Source of the DNA: a virus
Direction: 5' to 3' (one strand)
Virus record (IMG/VR): IMGVR_UViG_3300032236_000482
Coordinates: 1 to 27,784 of that record
Length of the DNA stretch: 27,784 nucleotides
Shown: positions 14,859 through 23,804 of the stretch, one piece after another
Numbering within the stretch: position 1 is the first letter of the stretch
Layout: each line of letters starts with the position of its first letter
Notes under the pieces: generated by a model
Told to the model about the DNA's origin: nothing
Databases searched by the model: none
The model's input: only the letters and a program-made list of their open reading frames with translations
Program-made: the position numbers and the translations under genes

Positions 14859-15932
14859 ATGACTATGAAAATTGCTGTAATTACTGACCAACACTTTGGT
14901 GCTCGAAACGACTCTGTTCACTTCTTGGACTTCTATGAGAAGTTCTACCGTGAAACATTCTTTCCTAAAATCAAAGAAGAACAAATTAAGTTCATATTAA
15001 TTCTAGGTGATACGTTTGACCGTAGAAAGTATGTGAACTTCTATTCGTTGAAACGTACCAAAGAAATGTTCTTTGACCCATTACAAAAAATGGGATGCGA
15101 AGTATTCATGTTGGCTGGTAACCACGACACATACTTTAAGAATACAAATGATGTTAACTCTGTTGACCTATTGTTAGCAGAGTATGGTAACATACATGTC
15201 ATCACAGAACCAGAAACTATCTATGTTGGTCCTAAATCAATTGCAATGATACCATGGATATGTGCTGACAACTATGAACAGACTTTACAGTTTATTAAAG
15301 ATACAGATTCTAAGATTTGTATGGGACACTTTGAGATTGCTGGCTTTGCCATGCATCGTGGTATGCCATCACAAGATGGTTTAGACCGGTCTATATTCAA
15401 TAAGTTTGATTATACATTCTCTGGTCATTACCATCACAAATCAAGTGCTGATGGCATATATTATCTTGGTAATCCATATGAACTAACATGGCAAGACTAC
15501 AATGATACCAGAGGTTTTCACCTGATGGATTTTTGGAAAGATGAAATACAATTTATTCCAAATACTAATCGTATGTTTCATAAAATACTGTATGATGATA
15601 AAGTAGACACCATCAAAGAAATTGATGGTAAAGACCTAACACAGTACAAGAATACCTATGTCAAAGTGGTTGTTGTCAATAAAACCAATCCGTATCTATT
15701 TGACAAGTTCATGAATAACCTGTATAATGTCAATCCAATCGATATTTCTATTGCAGAAGATTTTACTGAGTTGTCATTTGATGATGATGAATTGGTGAAT
15801 GAAGCGGAAGATACGATTACAATTTTAAACAAATATGTTGATGGTATATCAGAAGATAATATCGACAACACCAAACTGAAAAACATTCTCAAAGAACTTT
15901 ACGTTGAAGCTTTGAATACTGAACAAGCATGA
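14859..15932 (+). CDS. 47: Recombination nuclease subunit gp47 (Mre11/SbcD-like)
   Basis: This 357-residue protein (T4 gp47 339) has the calcineurin-type metallophosphatase motifs in order: DQH (10-12), GDTFDRR (50-56), GNHD (87-90), GHFEIAG and SGHYHHKS. These hold the two metal ions of the nuclease. With gp46 it forms the T4 Mre11-Rad50 complex that resects DNA ends for recombination and degrades host DNA. Its ATG lies six bases after a -10 box, so translation may begin leaderless at 14859 or at the in-frame ATG six bases later (MKIAVITDQ, which matches the T4 N-terminus better). It overlaps gp46 by four bases. Confidence 0.96.
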   Translation: MTMKIAVITDQHFGARNDSVHFLDFYEKFYRETFFPKIKEEQIKFILILGDTFDRRKYVNFYSLKRTKEMFFDPLQKMGCEVFMLAGNHDTYFKNTNDVNSVDLLLAEYGNIHVITEPETIYVGPKSIAMIPWICADNYEQTLQFIKDTDSKICMGHFEIAGFAMHRGMPSQDGLDRSIFNKFDYTFSGHYHHKSSADGIYYLGNPYELTWQDYNDTRGFHLMDFWKDEIQFIPNTNRMFHKILYDDKVDTIKEIDGKDLTQYKNTYVKVVVVNKTNPYLFDKFMNNLYNVNPIDISIAEDFTELSFDDDELVNEAEDTITILNKYVDGISEDNIDNTKLKNILKELYVEALNTEQA

Positions 15933-17647
15933 TATTATTTCAAAAAGTTAGGTGGAAGAATTTTCTTTCTACTGGTGCACATTATACAGAAATTAATTTT
16001 ACCAAATCACAGAACACTTTGATAATTGGTCAAAATGGTGCTGGTAAATCCACTATATTGGATGCATTATGTTTTGGTTTATTTGGTAAACCATTTCGTA
16101 AAATAAATAAACCACAACTGGTAAACTCTATCAATACAAAAGACTGTGTTGTGGAAGTATTCTTTAATATTGGTCAAAAACAATATAAGATTGTTCGTGG
16201 TATTAAACCGAATACATTTGAAATTTATATCAATGATGTTTTGCTGAACCAGGATGCCGCTGCAAAAGACTATCAGGAAGTACTAGAGAAACAAATTCTC
16301 AAATTAAACTACAAGTCCTTCACGCAGGTGGTAATCCTTGGTTCAGCATCATTTGTTCCGTTCATGCAGTTATCTGCCAATGACCGCAGAACAATCATCG
16401 AGGACTTACTCGACATTCAAATCTTTTCGTCAATGAATGGCGTAGTCAAAGAAAAACTATCCGAATTCAAAGAAGATATTACCAAAGCCAAATATGGTAT
16501 CTCTCTGACAGAAGAAAAGATTAAACTTCAATTACAGAATATTGAAGAACATAAGATACATACCGATGTTGAGATTGCCAAGATACTGGCTGAAATTGGT
16601 AAATCAAAAGAACAACACAGCAAATTGCAAAATGATATTGAGTTGATTAACAAACATGTTAAAGTATTGAACTCAAAGATTGGTGATAAGAAAGAAAAAC
16701 TGGAAAAGAAATCTAAAGGTCTATTTCAGGTCAAAGGTAAGATTGAAAACAATATTAAGAAGAATGAAAAAGATATTGAATTCTACCAACACAATGATAA
16801 CTGTCCTACTTGTAAACAATCTATTGAACCAGATTTCAAAGAACAACAGGTAACAGAACGTAACAATAAACTGAATACACAGAAGACCGGCCTTACTGAG
16901 GTAGAAACTGAACTTGAAAACATCACCAATGAAATGTCGGAAATCACCAAGATTATCCAACACATTGTTGAACACCAAAATCAGGTAACAGAACATAATG
17001 CCACGATGAGAGCCATCAGTACATACATTGATAAATTAAACAAACAGTATGATGAACTGTCTGTCAAAGTTAATACTCCACAAACCGATAATCAAAAGTT
17101 ATTGGAATTGAAAGCCGAATTGTTTGAGTTCAATGTGGCATATGAACAGTTAATGAATGAAAAACATTACTATGAATTTGCAGGCTCTCTGTTGAAAGAT
17201 ACTGGTATCAAAACCAAAATCATTAAACAATATTTGCCAATTATGAACAAGTTAATTAATAAGTACCTGACTGCCATGGACTTCTTTGTTAACTTTAACA
17301 TCAACGAAAACTTTGAAGAAACAATTAAGAGTAGGCACCGTGATGAATTCTCTTATGCCAACTTTTCTGAAGGTGAGAAGATGCGTATAGATTTAGCACT
17401 TCTTTTTACATGGAGACAGATTGCTAAAATGAAAAACTCTACCAATACAAACCTATTGATACTAGATGAGGTATTTGATTCTAGTCTTGATACAGTTGGT
17501 ACAGAAGAATTTCTAAAATTGATACATGAAATGGGACAAGATACGAATGTGTTTGTTATTTCACATAAAGGAGACCAACTGTTCGATAAGTTCCGTTCGG
17601 TTATTAAGTTTGAGAAAAAAGGAAACTTTTCAAGGATTGCAAAATGA
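15929..17647 (+). CDS. 46: Recombination nuclease subunit gp46 (Rad50/SbcC-like)
   Basis: This 572-residue SMC-type ATPase (T4 gp46 560) is complete. Walker A is GQNGAGKST (34-42), the zinc hook CPTC (292-295), the ABC signature NFSEGEKMR (478-486) and Walker B LLILDE (509-514), followed by the D-loop SLD. Coiled-coil arms occupy about 175-290 and 300-410 around the hook. It tethers DNA ends and controls gp47. The start overlaps the gp47 stop (ATGA) and its stop overlaps the peptide deformylase start, so the three genes should be translated together. Confidence 0.97.
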   Translation: MILFQKVRWKNFLSTGAHYTEINFTKSQNTLIIGQNGAGKSTILDALCFGLFGKPFRKINKPQLVNSINTKDCVVEVFFNIGQKQYKIVRGIKPNTFEIYINDVLLNQDAAAKDYQEVLEKQILKLNYKSFTQVVILGSASFVPFMQLSANDRRTIIEDLLDIQIFSSMNGVVKEKLSEFKEDITKAKYGISLTEEKIKLQLQNIEEHKIHTDVEIAKILAEIGKSKEQHSKLQNDIELINKHVKVLNSKIGDKKEKLEKKSKGLFQVKGKIENNIKKNEKDIEFYQHNDNCPTCKQSIEPDFKEQQVTERNNKLNTQKTGLTEVETELENITNEMSEITKIIQHIVEHQNQVTEHNATMRAISTYIDKLNKQYDELSVKVNTPQTDNQKLLELKAELFEFNVAYEQLMNEKHYYEFAGSLLKDTGIKTKIIKQYLPIMNKLINKYLTAMDFFVNFNINENFEETIKSRHRDEFSYANFSEGEKMRIDLALLFTWRQIAKMKNSTNTNLLILDEVFDSSLDTVGTEEFLKLIHEMGQDTNVFVISHKGDQLFDKFRSVIKFEKKGNFSRIAK

Positions 17648-18264
17648 GTACAAATGACGATATAATTTTATATAATACCGAAGATACTGTAAAACGTGTA
17701 CAACCACAAATTAAAACATTTGATTTGGTTGACCCAACACATCCAGCATTACACAAAGCATTAATAGATTTTGATTTTGACAATGCACCAATTAATCCAA
17801 ATGATTTTGCTTCATCACTTGTTGAGACTTGTAAGAAAAATAATGGACTTGGTTTATCCGCCAACCAATGTGGATTTGAACATCGTGTATTCGTGATGGG
17901 TGCCGGTGAAGATTATATCGCCTGTTACAATCCAAAAGTAATTGAATTGGAAGGTGAAACACATATGGAAGAAGGTTGCCTTACTTTTCCATTATTAATG
18001 TTGAGAGTTACCAGACCTAAAAAAATTAAAGTTGAATACCAGGATTTCACAGGTGTGAAAAGAGAGGCAACTTTTGATGGCATAAGTGCAAGAGTTTTTC
18101 TCCACGAGCTTGACCATATGAACGGGATAGTGTATACTAGTCGTGTAAAACCTTTGGCGTTTCAATATGGTTTAAAGAAACTAAACAAAATTCGCCGAAA
18201 GTATTTTAATCCTAAAGTTATGGCAAAACTAGCAGCACAACGAAACAATGGCAAAACAACTTAA
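17644..18264 (+). CDS. def: Peptide deformylase
   Basis: This 206-residue protein has the three deformylase motifs: GLGLSANQ (68-75; family GxGxAAxQ), EGCLTFP (110-116, metal ligand Cys112) and HELDH (154-158, metal ligands His154 and His158, catalytic Glu155). The family removes the formyl group from nascent proteins, and phage copies are known from cyanophages, where they are thought to keep up with fast viral or photosystem-protein synthesis. About 50 residues precede motif I in a longer-than-usual N-terminal region. It overlaps gp46 by four bases and the DruA-like gene by 17, so it sits in a tight cluster. Enzyme identity is firm, physiological role inferred. Confidence 0.95.
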   Translation: MSTNDDIILYNTEDTVKRVQPQIKTFDLVDPTHPALHKALIDFDFDNAPINPNDFASSLVETCKKNNGLGLSANQCGFEHRVFVMGAGEDYIACYNPKVIELEGETHMEEGCLTFPLLMLRVTRPKKIKVEYQDFTGVKREATFDGISARVFLHELDHMNGIVYTSRVKPLAFQYGLKKLNKIRRKYFNPKVMAKLAAQRNNGKTT

Positions 18265-19615
18265 AATCGTAAATACAATCTTTGGTGAAGAAGAACAAGT
18301 TTGTCAAAGTAATGTAATTCCATCTGTTGATGAACAATGGAAAATTTGGCAGCAACAAAATCTACCAGATAAAAGTGAAAAGATTGATAAAGATAAACTG
18401 AAAGAACAGTTGATTGATGATTTAACATATGCATCTAAAATGGATGTACGTGAATATACTTTGTATCAAAAATGGACAGAAGTTAAGAAAAGATATCCAC
18501 TCAAAACATCATCTACACTTGGTGATGAGATTGTTATGGAAGATCCAGCACAAAATGATATAATTCAAAAAGTTAAACGAAAATTCTGGATGCCTGAATC
18601 ACCAGATGATTATGCCAAATTGAGACCTATCATGCAATTGTCGAATGGTAATGAAGGTGAATATACAGTTGATAAATGGAATGCTATTCGTACATTTTCT
18701 TCCACAATGAAGAACAATTCTAATATCGGTCGTAATCTATTTTATACGGTGATTGATGGACAGACCGAAAAATATCTTGGTGTCATTTGTATATCATCCG
18801 ACTTCTTAGACCTTACACCAAGAGATAATAAAATTGGTTGGTCGAGAGATGTTAAAACACAACAAAGTATGATTAATCATACGGCCATTGGTTCTACAAT
18901 CGTACCTCTACAACCACTAGGTTTTAATTATATGGGAGGCAAATTACTTGCCTTATTATGTTTATCCGATACAGTACAAAATGATTGGAAGGTAAAATAT
19001 GGAGATACACTCGTTGGTGTTACCACTACTTCTCTTTATGGCAGCACAAAGTCCAATGGTCTTTCTCAGTATGATGGTTTGGAACATTGGGAGAAGATGG
19101 GATTTTCATCTGGTTCAGTTGCTTTTGAACCATCAAAGAAAACAGTAAACGAAATTTATCAATGGGTTAAACAGAACTATCCTGAAAAATATTTTGAATG
19201 GTGGGATGCAAAAAAGCCAACCACAAAATTAGATAAAAATGGTAATGGAAAAGATGGTGGTTTGCCATTAAAACGTGACCATAAAAATCGTACACTTAAT
19301 TTTGCTTATTCCAAACTAGGCATTCCAAAAGAATTAATTCGTACAGAACATGCGAGAGGTATCTATTTCTCACCTCTCTATAATAACACCAATGAATATC
19401 TCCGTAAAGAGATTGGTGATAAAGAACTGGTTAAATCATTTGATACCAGTGTCGAAACCCTAACAGATATTTGGAAAACCAAATATGCTAAAGGTCGTAT
19501 ATCAATGTTGAAGAAAAAGAACAATGTATCTTATGAATCTTTGTTCTATGATGACTTGATATACCTGTCTTGGGAAGAAACCAAGGCAAAATATCTACCA
19601 CAAGTTGGCAGATAA
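18248..19615 (+). CDS. DruA-like (DUF4338-like) protein
   Basis: This 455-residue protein has a central segment (about 165-290) resembling the DUF4338 family that includes DruA of the Druantia anti-phage system: FYTVIDGQTEKYLGVICISS, then LTPRDNKIGWS, SMINHTAIGSTIVPLQPLG, LLALLCLSDTVQNDWKVKYG and a closing TTSLYGSTKSNG. DUF4338 is broad and mostly uncharacterised, so the name does not establish defence. The N-terminal 120 residues are charged and helical, the C-terminal 150 residues (KKPTTKLDKNGNGKDGG onward) look unrelated to any domain I know. It overlaps deformylase by 17 bases and is followed by a new promoter. Recognition by eye, so a profile search is needed. Confidence 0.6.
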   Translation: MAKQLKIVNTIFGEEEQVCQSNVIPSVDEQWKIWQQQNLPDKSEKIDKDKLKEQLIDDLTYASKMDVREYTLYQKWTEVKKRYPLKTSSTLGDEIVMEDPAQNDIIQKVKRKFWMPESPDDYAKLRPIMQLSNGNEGEYTVDKWNAIRTFSSTMKNNSNIGRNLFYTVIDGQTEKYLGVICISSDFLDLTPRDNKIGWSRDVKTQQSMINHTAIGSTIVPLQPLGFNYMGGKLLALLCLSDTVQNDWKVKYGDTLVGVTTTSLYGSTKSNGLSQYDGLEHWEKMGFSSGSVAFEPSKKTVNEIYQWVKQNYPEKYFEWWDAKKPTTKLDKNGNGKDGGLPLKRDHKNRTLNFAYSKLGIPKELIRTEHARGIYFSPLYNNTNEYLRKEIGDKELVKSFDTSVETLTDIWKTKYAKGRISMLKKKNNVSYESLFYDDLIYLSWEETKAKYLPQVGR

Positions 19616-20865: not shown

Positions 20866-21188
20866 TGGGTACAGGTCGTAAGTATGATGGTGGTAAACTA
20901 GAATATGGTTTACTTCCAGCATTTGCATTAGAGGAGACTGTCAAAGTACTTACCTTTGGCGCTCAAAAATATGAACGTGGTAATTGGCAAAAAGTACCTG
21001 ACGCAAAACGTAGGTACTTTGACGCATTACAACGGCATATTTGGTCATGGAAACAAGGCGAACAACTTGACCCCGAATCTGGCATACATCATTTAGCCCA
21101 CGCAATGTGTTGCTTGATGTTTTTGTATGAACATGATATAATAAACTTTGAAAACTTAAATAATGGAGAAGTGAATGAAACTATCTAA
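20865..21188 (+). CDS. dATP/dGTP diphosphohydrolase-type (MazG-like) protein
   Basis: This 107-residue protein begins with GRKYDGGKLEYGLLPAFALEETVKVLTFGAQKYERGNW and continues with RYFDALQRHIWSWKQGE, LDPESGIHHLAHAMCCLMFLYE. This is the pattern of the phage dATP/dGTP diphosphohydrolase domain (all-alpha NTP-PPase superfamily, which includes MazZ). MazZ-type enzymes hydrolyse dATP and dGTP, and in phages with 2-aminoadenine they help build the Z-genome, but similar proteins are widespread in phages without it. The ATG overlaps the preceding stop. Its last 14 bases overlap gp45, whose promoter lies inside this gene. Confidence 0.8.
   Translation: MGTGRKYDGGKLEYGLLPAFALEETVKVLTFGAQKYERGNWQKVPDAKRRYFDALQRHIWSWKQGEQLDPESGIHHLAHAMCCLMFLYEHDIINFENLNNGEVNETI
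21114..21142 (+). promoter_or_regulatory. Sigma70-type promoter for gp45
   Basis: TTGATG (21114-21119), a 17-base spacer and perfect TATAAT (21137-21142) lie within the end of the preceding gene, 32 bases before the gp45 ATG. The -35 has two mismatches to TTGACA. Confidence 0.7.
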
Positions 21189-21849
21189 CGAAACACTTAA
21201 TGTGTTAAAGAACTTTGCTGGAATTAATTCTGGAATTGAGTTCAAAACCGGCAACAAGATTGCCACCATTTCATCTACAAAGACTGTGCTTGCCAAAGCA
21301 ACTCTGCCTGATGAATTCCCACAAGACTTTTGTATCTATGATTTGAATCAATTCTTATCAGTACATTCTCTTGGTAAAGATACTGAATTGGATTTTGATT
21401 CTAATAATGTTGTATTCAAATCTGGTCGTTCTAAGACCAAGTATCGTATGACCGCAAAGTCTATGATTGTATCGGCACCAGAGAAAGAGTTGACACTACC
21501 TTCCATCGATGGTTCTTTTAAATTGAAAGATGAAGACCTTGCGCAAGCATTGAAGAATGCTGCTGTCTTGGGTTCACCTAATATTGCTTTTGAATCTGAT
21601 GGTTCTAAAATCTCTGTAACTTGTTTCAATGCCAAAGATGATTCAGCACACACAAACACAATCGAAATCGGTACAACCGATAACGATAAACAATTCAAAG
21701 CTGTCTTTCTTGTTGAAAACTTTAAGATGATTCCTGGCACATATAATGTACAGGTATCTTCAAAAGGTCTGGCATCTTTTGTTAATGAAAAAGGCGACTT
21801 GCAGTACTGGATTGCAATTGAAGCTAAAGAATCTAAATTTGGAGAATAA
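21175..21849 (+). CDS. 45: Sliding clamp gp45
   Basis: This 224-residue protein aligns with T4 gp45 (228): MKLSNETLNVLKNFAGINSGIEF (T4 MKLSKDTTALLKNFATINSGIML), CIYDLNQFLSVHSL, the interdomain LKDEDLAQALKNAAVLGSPNIAF, FNAKDDSAHTNTIEI and MIPGTYNVQV. It forms the trimeric ring that tethers the polymerase and, in T4, activates late transcription with gp55. It has its own promoter, a GGAGAAG ribosome site and starts inside the end of the diphosphohydrolase gene. Four small genes separate it from the clamp loader, which in T4 lies closer. Confidence 0.96.
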   Translation: MKLSNETLNVLKNFAGINSGIEFKTGNKIATISSTKTVLAKATLPDEFPQDFCIYDLNQFLSVHSLGKDTELDFDSNNVVFKSGRSKTKYRMTAKSMIVSAPEKELTLPSIDGSFKLKDEDLAQALKNAAVLGSPNIAFESDGSKISVTCFNAKDDSAHTNTIEIGTTDNDKQFKAVFLVENFKMIPGTYNVQVSSKGLASFVNEKGDLQYWIAIEAKESKFGE

Positions 21850-22040: not shown

Positions 22041-22316
22041 ATGACCAAAGTAAATACATTATTTGGTTCTTTTGATGAAGATGACCTGAAAAAACTCAAA
22101 GGTTATGTTGATGAGGTTGTACTTCATATGCACAAGAATGATGGCAACAATGCTGCCATTAAAGATATTGTGGATATTGCACATGATGAATTGAAGATTC
22201 CCAAAAAGATTCTCAAACGTATGGCAAAGACACAACACAAGAACTCATTTCAAACTGAAGTTGCTGAATCAAAAGAATTCGAAGCATTATACGAAAGTAT
22301 GGTAGAGGTGAAGTGA
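22041..22316 (+). CDS. Small charged helical protein, possibly DsbA-like
   Basis: This 91-residue protein has DEDDLKKLKGYVDEVVLHMHKN, then AAIKDIVDIAHDELKIPKKILKRMAKTQHKNSF and an acidic helix. The pattern and size recall the small phage proteins grouped with T4 DsbA, a dsDNA-binding protein that supports late transcription; the resemblance is weak and based on pattern, not alignment. It starts one base after the previous stop and its stop overlaps the start of the next gene (TGATG). It lies between gp45 and gp44, a sensible place for a late-transcription accessory factor. Confidence 0.7.
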   Translation: MTKVNTLFGSFDEDDLKKLKGYVDEVVLHMHKNDGNNAAIKDIVDIAHDELKIPKKILKRMAKTQHKNSFQTEVAESKEFEALYESMVEVK

Positions 22317-22871: not shown

Positions 22872-23804
22872 ATGTCAGAACACATGTTGTGGGTGGAGAA
22901 GTATCGTCCACAGAAAATTGAAGATTGTATTCTTCCTGATGCCTTAAAGGCAACCTTTCAGGAATTTGTAAATCGTAAAGAGATTCCCAATCTACTTCTG
23001 GCAGGAACAGCAGGTGTCGGTAAGACTACTGTTGCTCGTGCTATGTGTGAAGAAGTAGGTTGTGATTACATTATCATTAACGGTTCTGATGAGAATGGTG
23101 TTGACACCATTCGTATTAAAATCAAAAACTATGCTTCGTCAATGTCCTTGACTGGTGGTCGTAAGGTCATTATTCTAGATGAAGCAGACTATCTAACGCC
23201 TAATGCACAGGCTATCCTACGTGCAGGTATTGAAGAATTTGCATCTAACTGTTCTTTCATATTCACCTGTAACTTTAAGAATCGGATTATTGATCCTATT
23301 CATTCCCGTTGTACTGTAATTGATGTTAAACCAAATGGTTCTAAAGCCAAGATGGCCACAGCATTTTTCAAACGTGTTGAATCTATTCTAAAAGAAGAAG
23401 GTATCACATACGATAAAGAAGTTGTTGCTGCTGTTGTCACTAAACATTTCCCTGATAATCGCCGTATTCTTAATGAATTACAACGATATGGTGTATCAGG
23501 TAGTATTGACAAAGGTATTCTTGCGTCAGTTTCCGATGTACAACTAGGTGAGTTAACTAAGTCACTTAAAGATAAAGACTTTGCTGGTGCTCGTAAATGG
23601 GTCACCATGAACTTGGACAATGATCCTACACGTATCTTTCGTAAATTGTATGATGGTTTATATGAACTGTTGAAAGCCAATTCGGTACCTCAACTGGTTC
23701 TTATCCTTGCCAAGTATCAATATCAAGCGGCATTTGTGGCTGACCATGAAATCAATTTGATTGCCTGTCTCACAGAAATTATGGTGGAATGTGAGTTCAA
23801 ATAA
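22872..23804 (+). CDS. 44: Clamp loader large subunit gp44
   Basis: This 310-residue AAA+ ATPase (T4 gp44 319) starts MSEHMLWVEKYRPQKIEDCI, as T4-type loaders do. Walker A is AGTAGVGKT (44-52), Walker B ILDEAD (101-106), sensor region FTCNFKNRI and the arginine-finger SRC motif 145-147. Four copies with one gp62 open and load gp45 on primed DNA. GGAG at 22861-22864 gives the ribosome site. The stop overlaps the gp62 start (TAATG). Confidence 0.97.
   Translation: MSEHMLWVEKYRPQKIEDCILPDALKATFQEFVNRKEIPNLLLAGTAGVGKTTVARAMCEEVGCDYIIINGSDENGVDTIRIKIKNYASSMSLTGGRKVIILDEADYLTPNAQAILRAGIEEFASNCSFIFTCNFKNRIIDPIHSRCTVIDVKPNGSKAKMATAFFKRVESILKEEGITYDKEVVAAVVTKHFPDNRRILNELQRYGVSGSIDKGILASVSDVQLGELTKSLKDKDFAGARKWVTMNLDNDPTRIFRKLYDGLYELLKANSVPQLVLILAKYQYQAAFVADHEINLIACLTEIMVECEFK

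Follow-up and report, generated by a model that had tools for sequence, protein, structure and literature searches.

A DruA (DUF4338) family protein encoded within the replication and recombination modules of T4-like phages, with a predicted GNAT-like core

The locus and its genes

The window, by which we mean the whole stretch of DNA that was analyzed, comes from a T4-like aquatic virus and is a 27784-base fragment in IMG/VR. Head and tail genes lie at its start, as T4-like flanks, and comparison with PHROGs identifies UvsW, gp55, gp47, gp46, and a peptide deformylase (def) upstream of a gene for a protein of 455 amino acids, with the sliding clamp gp45 and the clamp loader gp44 downstream of it. 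A reading made from the sequence only had described this region as a T4-like replication and recombination cluster, which the PHROGs assignments bear out. The open reading frame that it had marked is present on the plus strand with an ATG start, overlapping the end of def by 17 bases. The positions of these genes, and of features within the protein, are collected in Table 1.

A small open reading frame of 91 amino acids between gp45 and gp44 (22041-22316) begins with the same ‘VNT[LI]FG’ pattern as the DruA-family protein (18248-18300), although this start is too poorly conserved across the family for interpretation. A clamp-binding role for the ‘TLFG’ peptide was considered and dropped, the peptide being found in some sequences of the family and not conserved.

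Table 1. Genes and protein features of the window.
Feature	Position	Strand	Basis or comment
gp47 recombination endonuclease subunit (SbcD-like)	14859..15932	+	PHROGs
gp46 recombination endonuclease subunit (SbcC-like)	15929..17647	+	PHROGs
def (peptide deformylase)	17644..18264	+	PHROGs; 17-nt overlap with the DruA-family gene downstream
DruA-family protein, 455 aa (P0001)	18248..19615	+	ATG start; matches to Pfam, PADLOC, and bacterial-only profiles
N-terminal region, residues 1-119	18248..18604	+	No match in DruA; conserved across the phages of clade A
Predicted GNAT/Mom-like core, residues 118-388	18599..19411	+	Folded and searched separately
Invariant loop QPLGFNYMGGK, residues 222-232	18911..18943	+	Alignment; putative GNAT cofactor-loop position, from predicted secondary structure
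Conserved TTSLYG...SQYDG segment, residues 260-278	19025..19081	+	Alignment; putative acceptor site
gp45 sliding clamp	21175..21849	+	PHROGs
gp44 clamp loader	22872..23804	+	PHROGs

Relationship to bacterial DruA

Several profiles place the protein in the DruA family. The Pfam model PF14236 (DruA, formerly DUF4338) matches residues 157-386 with E=2.1e-21 and 76.8 bits, which exceeds its curated cutoff of 27 bits, and the PADLOC DruA profile matches residues 159-423 (E=7.7e-17). A profile built from bacterial members of the family only extends the similarity to residues 123-419 (E=1.8e-26), and every one of 62 phage sequences in a diverse alignment matches Pfam DruA. The resemblance to DruA and DUF4338 proposed from the sequence is thus significant far above chance and, judged by these profiles, the window protein is a genuine member of the family. 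Searches of NCBIfam assigned it to no family, and sequence searches against solved structures found no relative.

Both ends of the protein had been thought to be new. This holds for the first ∼120 residues, which are without a DruA counterpart and begin with a short extension common to a subset of the phages of clade A (one of two phage groups, described below). It does not hold for the last 150, because the bacterial-only profile reaches residue 419, so that the C-terminus belongs to the DruA family. A W..A..R block in this C-terminal region is in part common to DruA from Nitrosococcus. Within the core, the motifs GGKL and T-x-S and a conserved Y are common to the phage protein and to DruA from a Druantia locus, and the polar residues S184, R192, Q222, K232, T260, T261, S262, Y264, and Y275 are invariant in the 62 diverse sequences. 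A long form of DruA with a large insertion, of about 660-1200 amino acids (L285, L292, L303, L304, and L305), has a TTSLY..SSQY-type motif like that of the phage clade.

In a phylogenetic tree, the phage sequences form one clade (support 100/95), which is split into two groups, A and B. The bacterial type I and long DruA proteins form a clade (98/90) beside it, with short DUF4338 proteins as an outgroup; this root is assumed, so the direction of borrowing cannot be read from the tree. The deep and separate position of the phage clade disfavors recent capture of a defense gene. The phage genes differ from DruA of Druantia type I in forming their own clade, as well as in their N-terminal ∼120 residues and in sitting among replication genes, despite significant homology across the full core. 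A further difference from the type I system is the absence of DruE: a query from the Nitrosococcus locus gave no match in any of the eight complete phage genomes bearing a homologue, while finding DruE in a control plasmid. DruE was the one Druantia partner sought (rather than DruB, DruC, or DruD), and the window itself is a fragment.

Distribution and gene neighborhoods

Homologues are present in 31 INPHARED records (RefSeq duplicates counted), from the Pelagibacter phages Mosig and HTVC008M, Synechococcus phages, and two single-cell marine viruses. The Mosig and HTVC008M proteins are 58% and 50% identical to the window protein, respectively. Only a minority of T4-like phages in culture have the gene, with 31 records compared with 3397 that have a gp46 match; in IMG/VR there are at least 594 relatives, identified among 600 candidates. 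DruA-like proteins have already been reported in six Synechococcus phages using Phold (PMC12774648). These are of the same family, and the gene of S-PRM1 falls in clade B, whereas the window gene belongs to clade A, is linked to def and gp46, and is core in its own lineage.

The two clades occupy different sites, clade A following def and gp46, and clade B lying between gp44 and gp62. A survey of T4-like genomes for the gene beside def or gp46, as had been suggested, identified def as the upstream neighbor in 132 clade A loci, 75 of which show an overlap of 1 nt; these counts include some contigs twice (fetched by two scans). For clade B, gp44 and gp62 were both named as flanks in 56 loci; the loci in these neighborhood analyses are best-scoring matches and not a random sample. 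Phage S-B68 has its DruA-family gene near gp47, and HTVC008M has two such genes, one from each clade. The clade B copy (L267:6536-7660) overlaps the end of gp43 (DNA polymerase) by 4 nt and is followed by uvsX. At every locus with neighbors that could be named, the gene is housed in replication or recombination modules (def/gp46, gp44-gp62, gp43-uvsX, or gp47), although gene neighborhood alone is not proof of a role in replication. A megablast search for a plasmid context gave no match.

Two contigs binned as Thermoplasmata archaea carry two DruA-family genes in tandem (L243:2280-4708 and L244:969-3478). A cellular origin was rejected for them; gp41- and gp43-like genes lie nearby and suggest that these are probably mis-binned phage contigs.

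Core status and selection

The gene is a constant feature of the lineage represented by the window. From 80 IMG/VR contigs that were fetched by the window gp46, 14 were truncated and 66 had the region of the gene in reach; all 66 carry the DruA-family gene. In 35 complete sets the DruA-family protein, with a median identity to the window of 72%, was on a par with gp46 (71%) and above def (58%); the figure for gp45 was 63% (30 sets). Values of dN/dS were about 0.12-0.21 for the pairs computed. These observations support the conclusion that, among near relatives of the window, to which the core status and identity figures apply, the gene is core, as conserved as gp46, and under purifying selection.

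Predicted fold and a link to Mom

Structure prediction, which the sequence-only reading had proposed for comparison with DruA, gave AlphaFold2 models with pLDDT values of 88.9 (complete chain) and 85.3 (residues 118-388). Searching the PDB with the whole protein returned mostly GNATs, none of them below E=0.01, and the core model also matched GNATs, with a best value of E=9e-5. The Mom protein of phage Mu (8bv8) ranked 12 by E-value (E=2e-3, TM 0.45/0.53) and had the highest TM-score (0.45) among the structural matches listed, with wide coverage. The E-values of the core matches are weak and TM-scores do not exceed about 0.5. These models support a core that is GNAT-like in its predicted fold, and DUF4338 has elsewhere been termed a GNAT domain (PMC10853773). 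In the BFVD library, uncharacterized proteins of the giant viruses Faunusvirus, Yasminevirus, and Dasosvirus (A0A3G4ZXG3, A0A5K0UAJ3, and A0A3G4ZRA1) were some of the best structural hits of the window protein, giant viruses being the top named sources in this viral library.

Direct membership of the Mom family was rejected on sequence. Pfam Mom (PF25680) matched neither the window protein nor the 62 phage members, and the phage and Mom profiles, when aligned directly with hhalign, scored no higher than permuted decoys, which serve as the control since single hhalign comparisons give no database E-values. A generic GNAT profile compared with the phage profile was likewise at decoy level (score 21.4). 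Several profile variants were tried and Mom was matched only by those of short DUF4338 proteins: the short profile matched Mom with E=8.8e-11 (score 74.7; best of 60 decoys 21.3), the phage core with E=1.1e-10 (score 77.2; best decoy 21.4), and bacterial DruA with E=1.4e-13, with a noise-level score against the generic GNAT profile.

Some of these short proteins are transposase fusions; L280 and L282, from bacterial genomes, each join DUF4338 to a DDE transposase. The short DUF4338 domains belong to the same Pfam family as the phage protein and match its core significantly, yet they form a distinct clade and have other loop motifs. L282 matches Pfam Mom with E=2e-4, below the curated cutoff, and this weak match suggests that a Mom-like domain may occur in transposases. 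The conserved His-Tyr of Mom and its NSES serine (by its numbering, apparently the S124 mutated in 8bv8) are missing from phage and DruA sequences alike, so Mom-type chemistry is not to be assumed for them. Among the papers searched, we found none that links DruA and Mom.

Possible functions of the phage protein

Different models can be proposed to explain these observations. The one we favor, to which we give about even odds, is that the protein represents a branch of the DruA (DUF4338) family specific to phages and that its gene is a conserved member of the replication and recombination genes in this T4-like lineage, with a GNAT-type core distantly related to Mom in the protein. It is most likely a replication-linked protein of predicted GNAT/Mom fold, and may be an acyl-transfer enzyme that has DNA or the replisome as its target. 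The invariant QPLGFNYMGGK loop would bind an acyl-CoA-like cofactor and the TTSLYG...SQYDG segment would form the acceptor site, so that, as replication proceeds, a group could be passed to the phage DNA or else to one of the replisome proteins. The phage protein would have no part in a Druantia complex within the phage.

A narrower catalytic form of this model is Mom-like base modification, in which an acyl-type group would be added to bases in phage DNA, protecting it from host nucleases. The structural match by TM-score and the short DUF4338 bridge point in this direction, as does the depositor's name ‘methylcarbamoylase mom’ for the S-SCSM2R gene, but the loss of the conserved Mom residues and the lack of a direct profile match make it a tentative proposal, somewhat unlikely as it stands. 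The same loss of residues, together with linkage to the replisome, would suit a replisome protein that binds DNA or acts as a scaffold without catalysis, having kept the fold but lost group transfer; we consider this rather improbable, since so many invariant polar residues across 62 diverse sequences look like an active site.

The sequence-only reading had offered three roles: counter-defense, exclusion of rival phages, or a job on DNA that was borrowed by the bacterial system. The last of these fits best with the presence of the gene in 66/66 contigs, its dN/dS, its location in replication modules, and a clade that stands beside bacterial DruA. The first two, whether through a DruA mimic poisoning the Druantia of the host or through a one-gene exclusion system, draw on homology to a defense protein and gained no positive support; a gene that is core, slowly evolving, set inside replication modules, and of an old, separate phage clade, with no DruE found in eight complete phage genomes, makes them improbable. 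Equally improbable is a protein N-acetyltransferase acting after the neighboring deformylase, as the overlap with def in clade A and PDB matches to ribosomal-protein N-acetyltransferases and NatF might suggest, because def does not adjoin the clade B genes or the second copy in HTVC008M.

Implications

DruA-like proteins in cyanophages and the description of DUF4338 as a GNAT were known previously (see above); the core status of the gene, its linkage to the replisome, the clade structure, and the bridge to Mom are new here. A more speculative proposal, for which we see perhaps one chance in four, is that DruA, Mom, and transposase-fused DUF4338 proteins constitute a single DNA-marking superfamily, providing core, replication-coupled DNA modification in T4-like phages and, through a sister branch in bacteria, Druantia defense. 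The label of ‘defense gene’ can mislead when it is applied to the phage gene, which looks like a core viral tool for handling DNA rather than a stolen defense gene. Among the papers searched, none states the role of DruA in Druantia type I. In this respect, a core homologue within cultured phages (HTVC008M, Mosig, and S-PRM1), combined with the bridge to Mom, provides a testable lead on the function of DruA.
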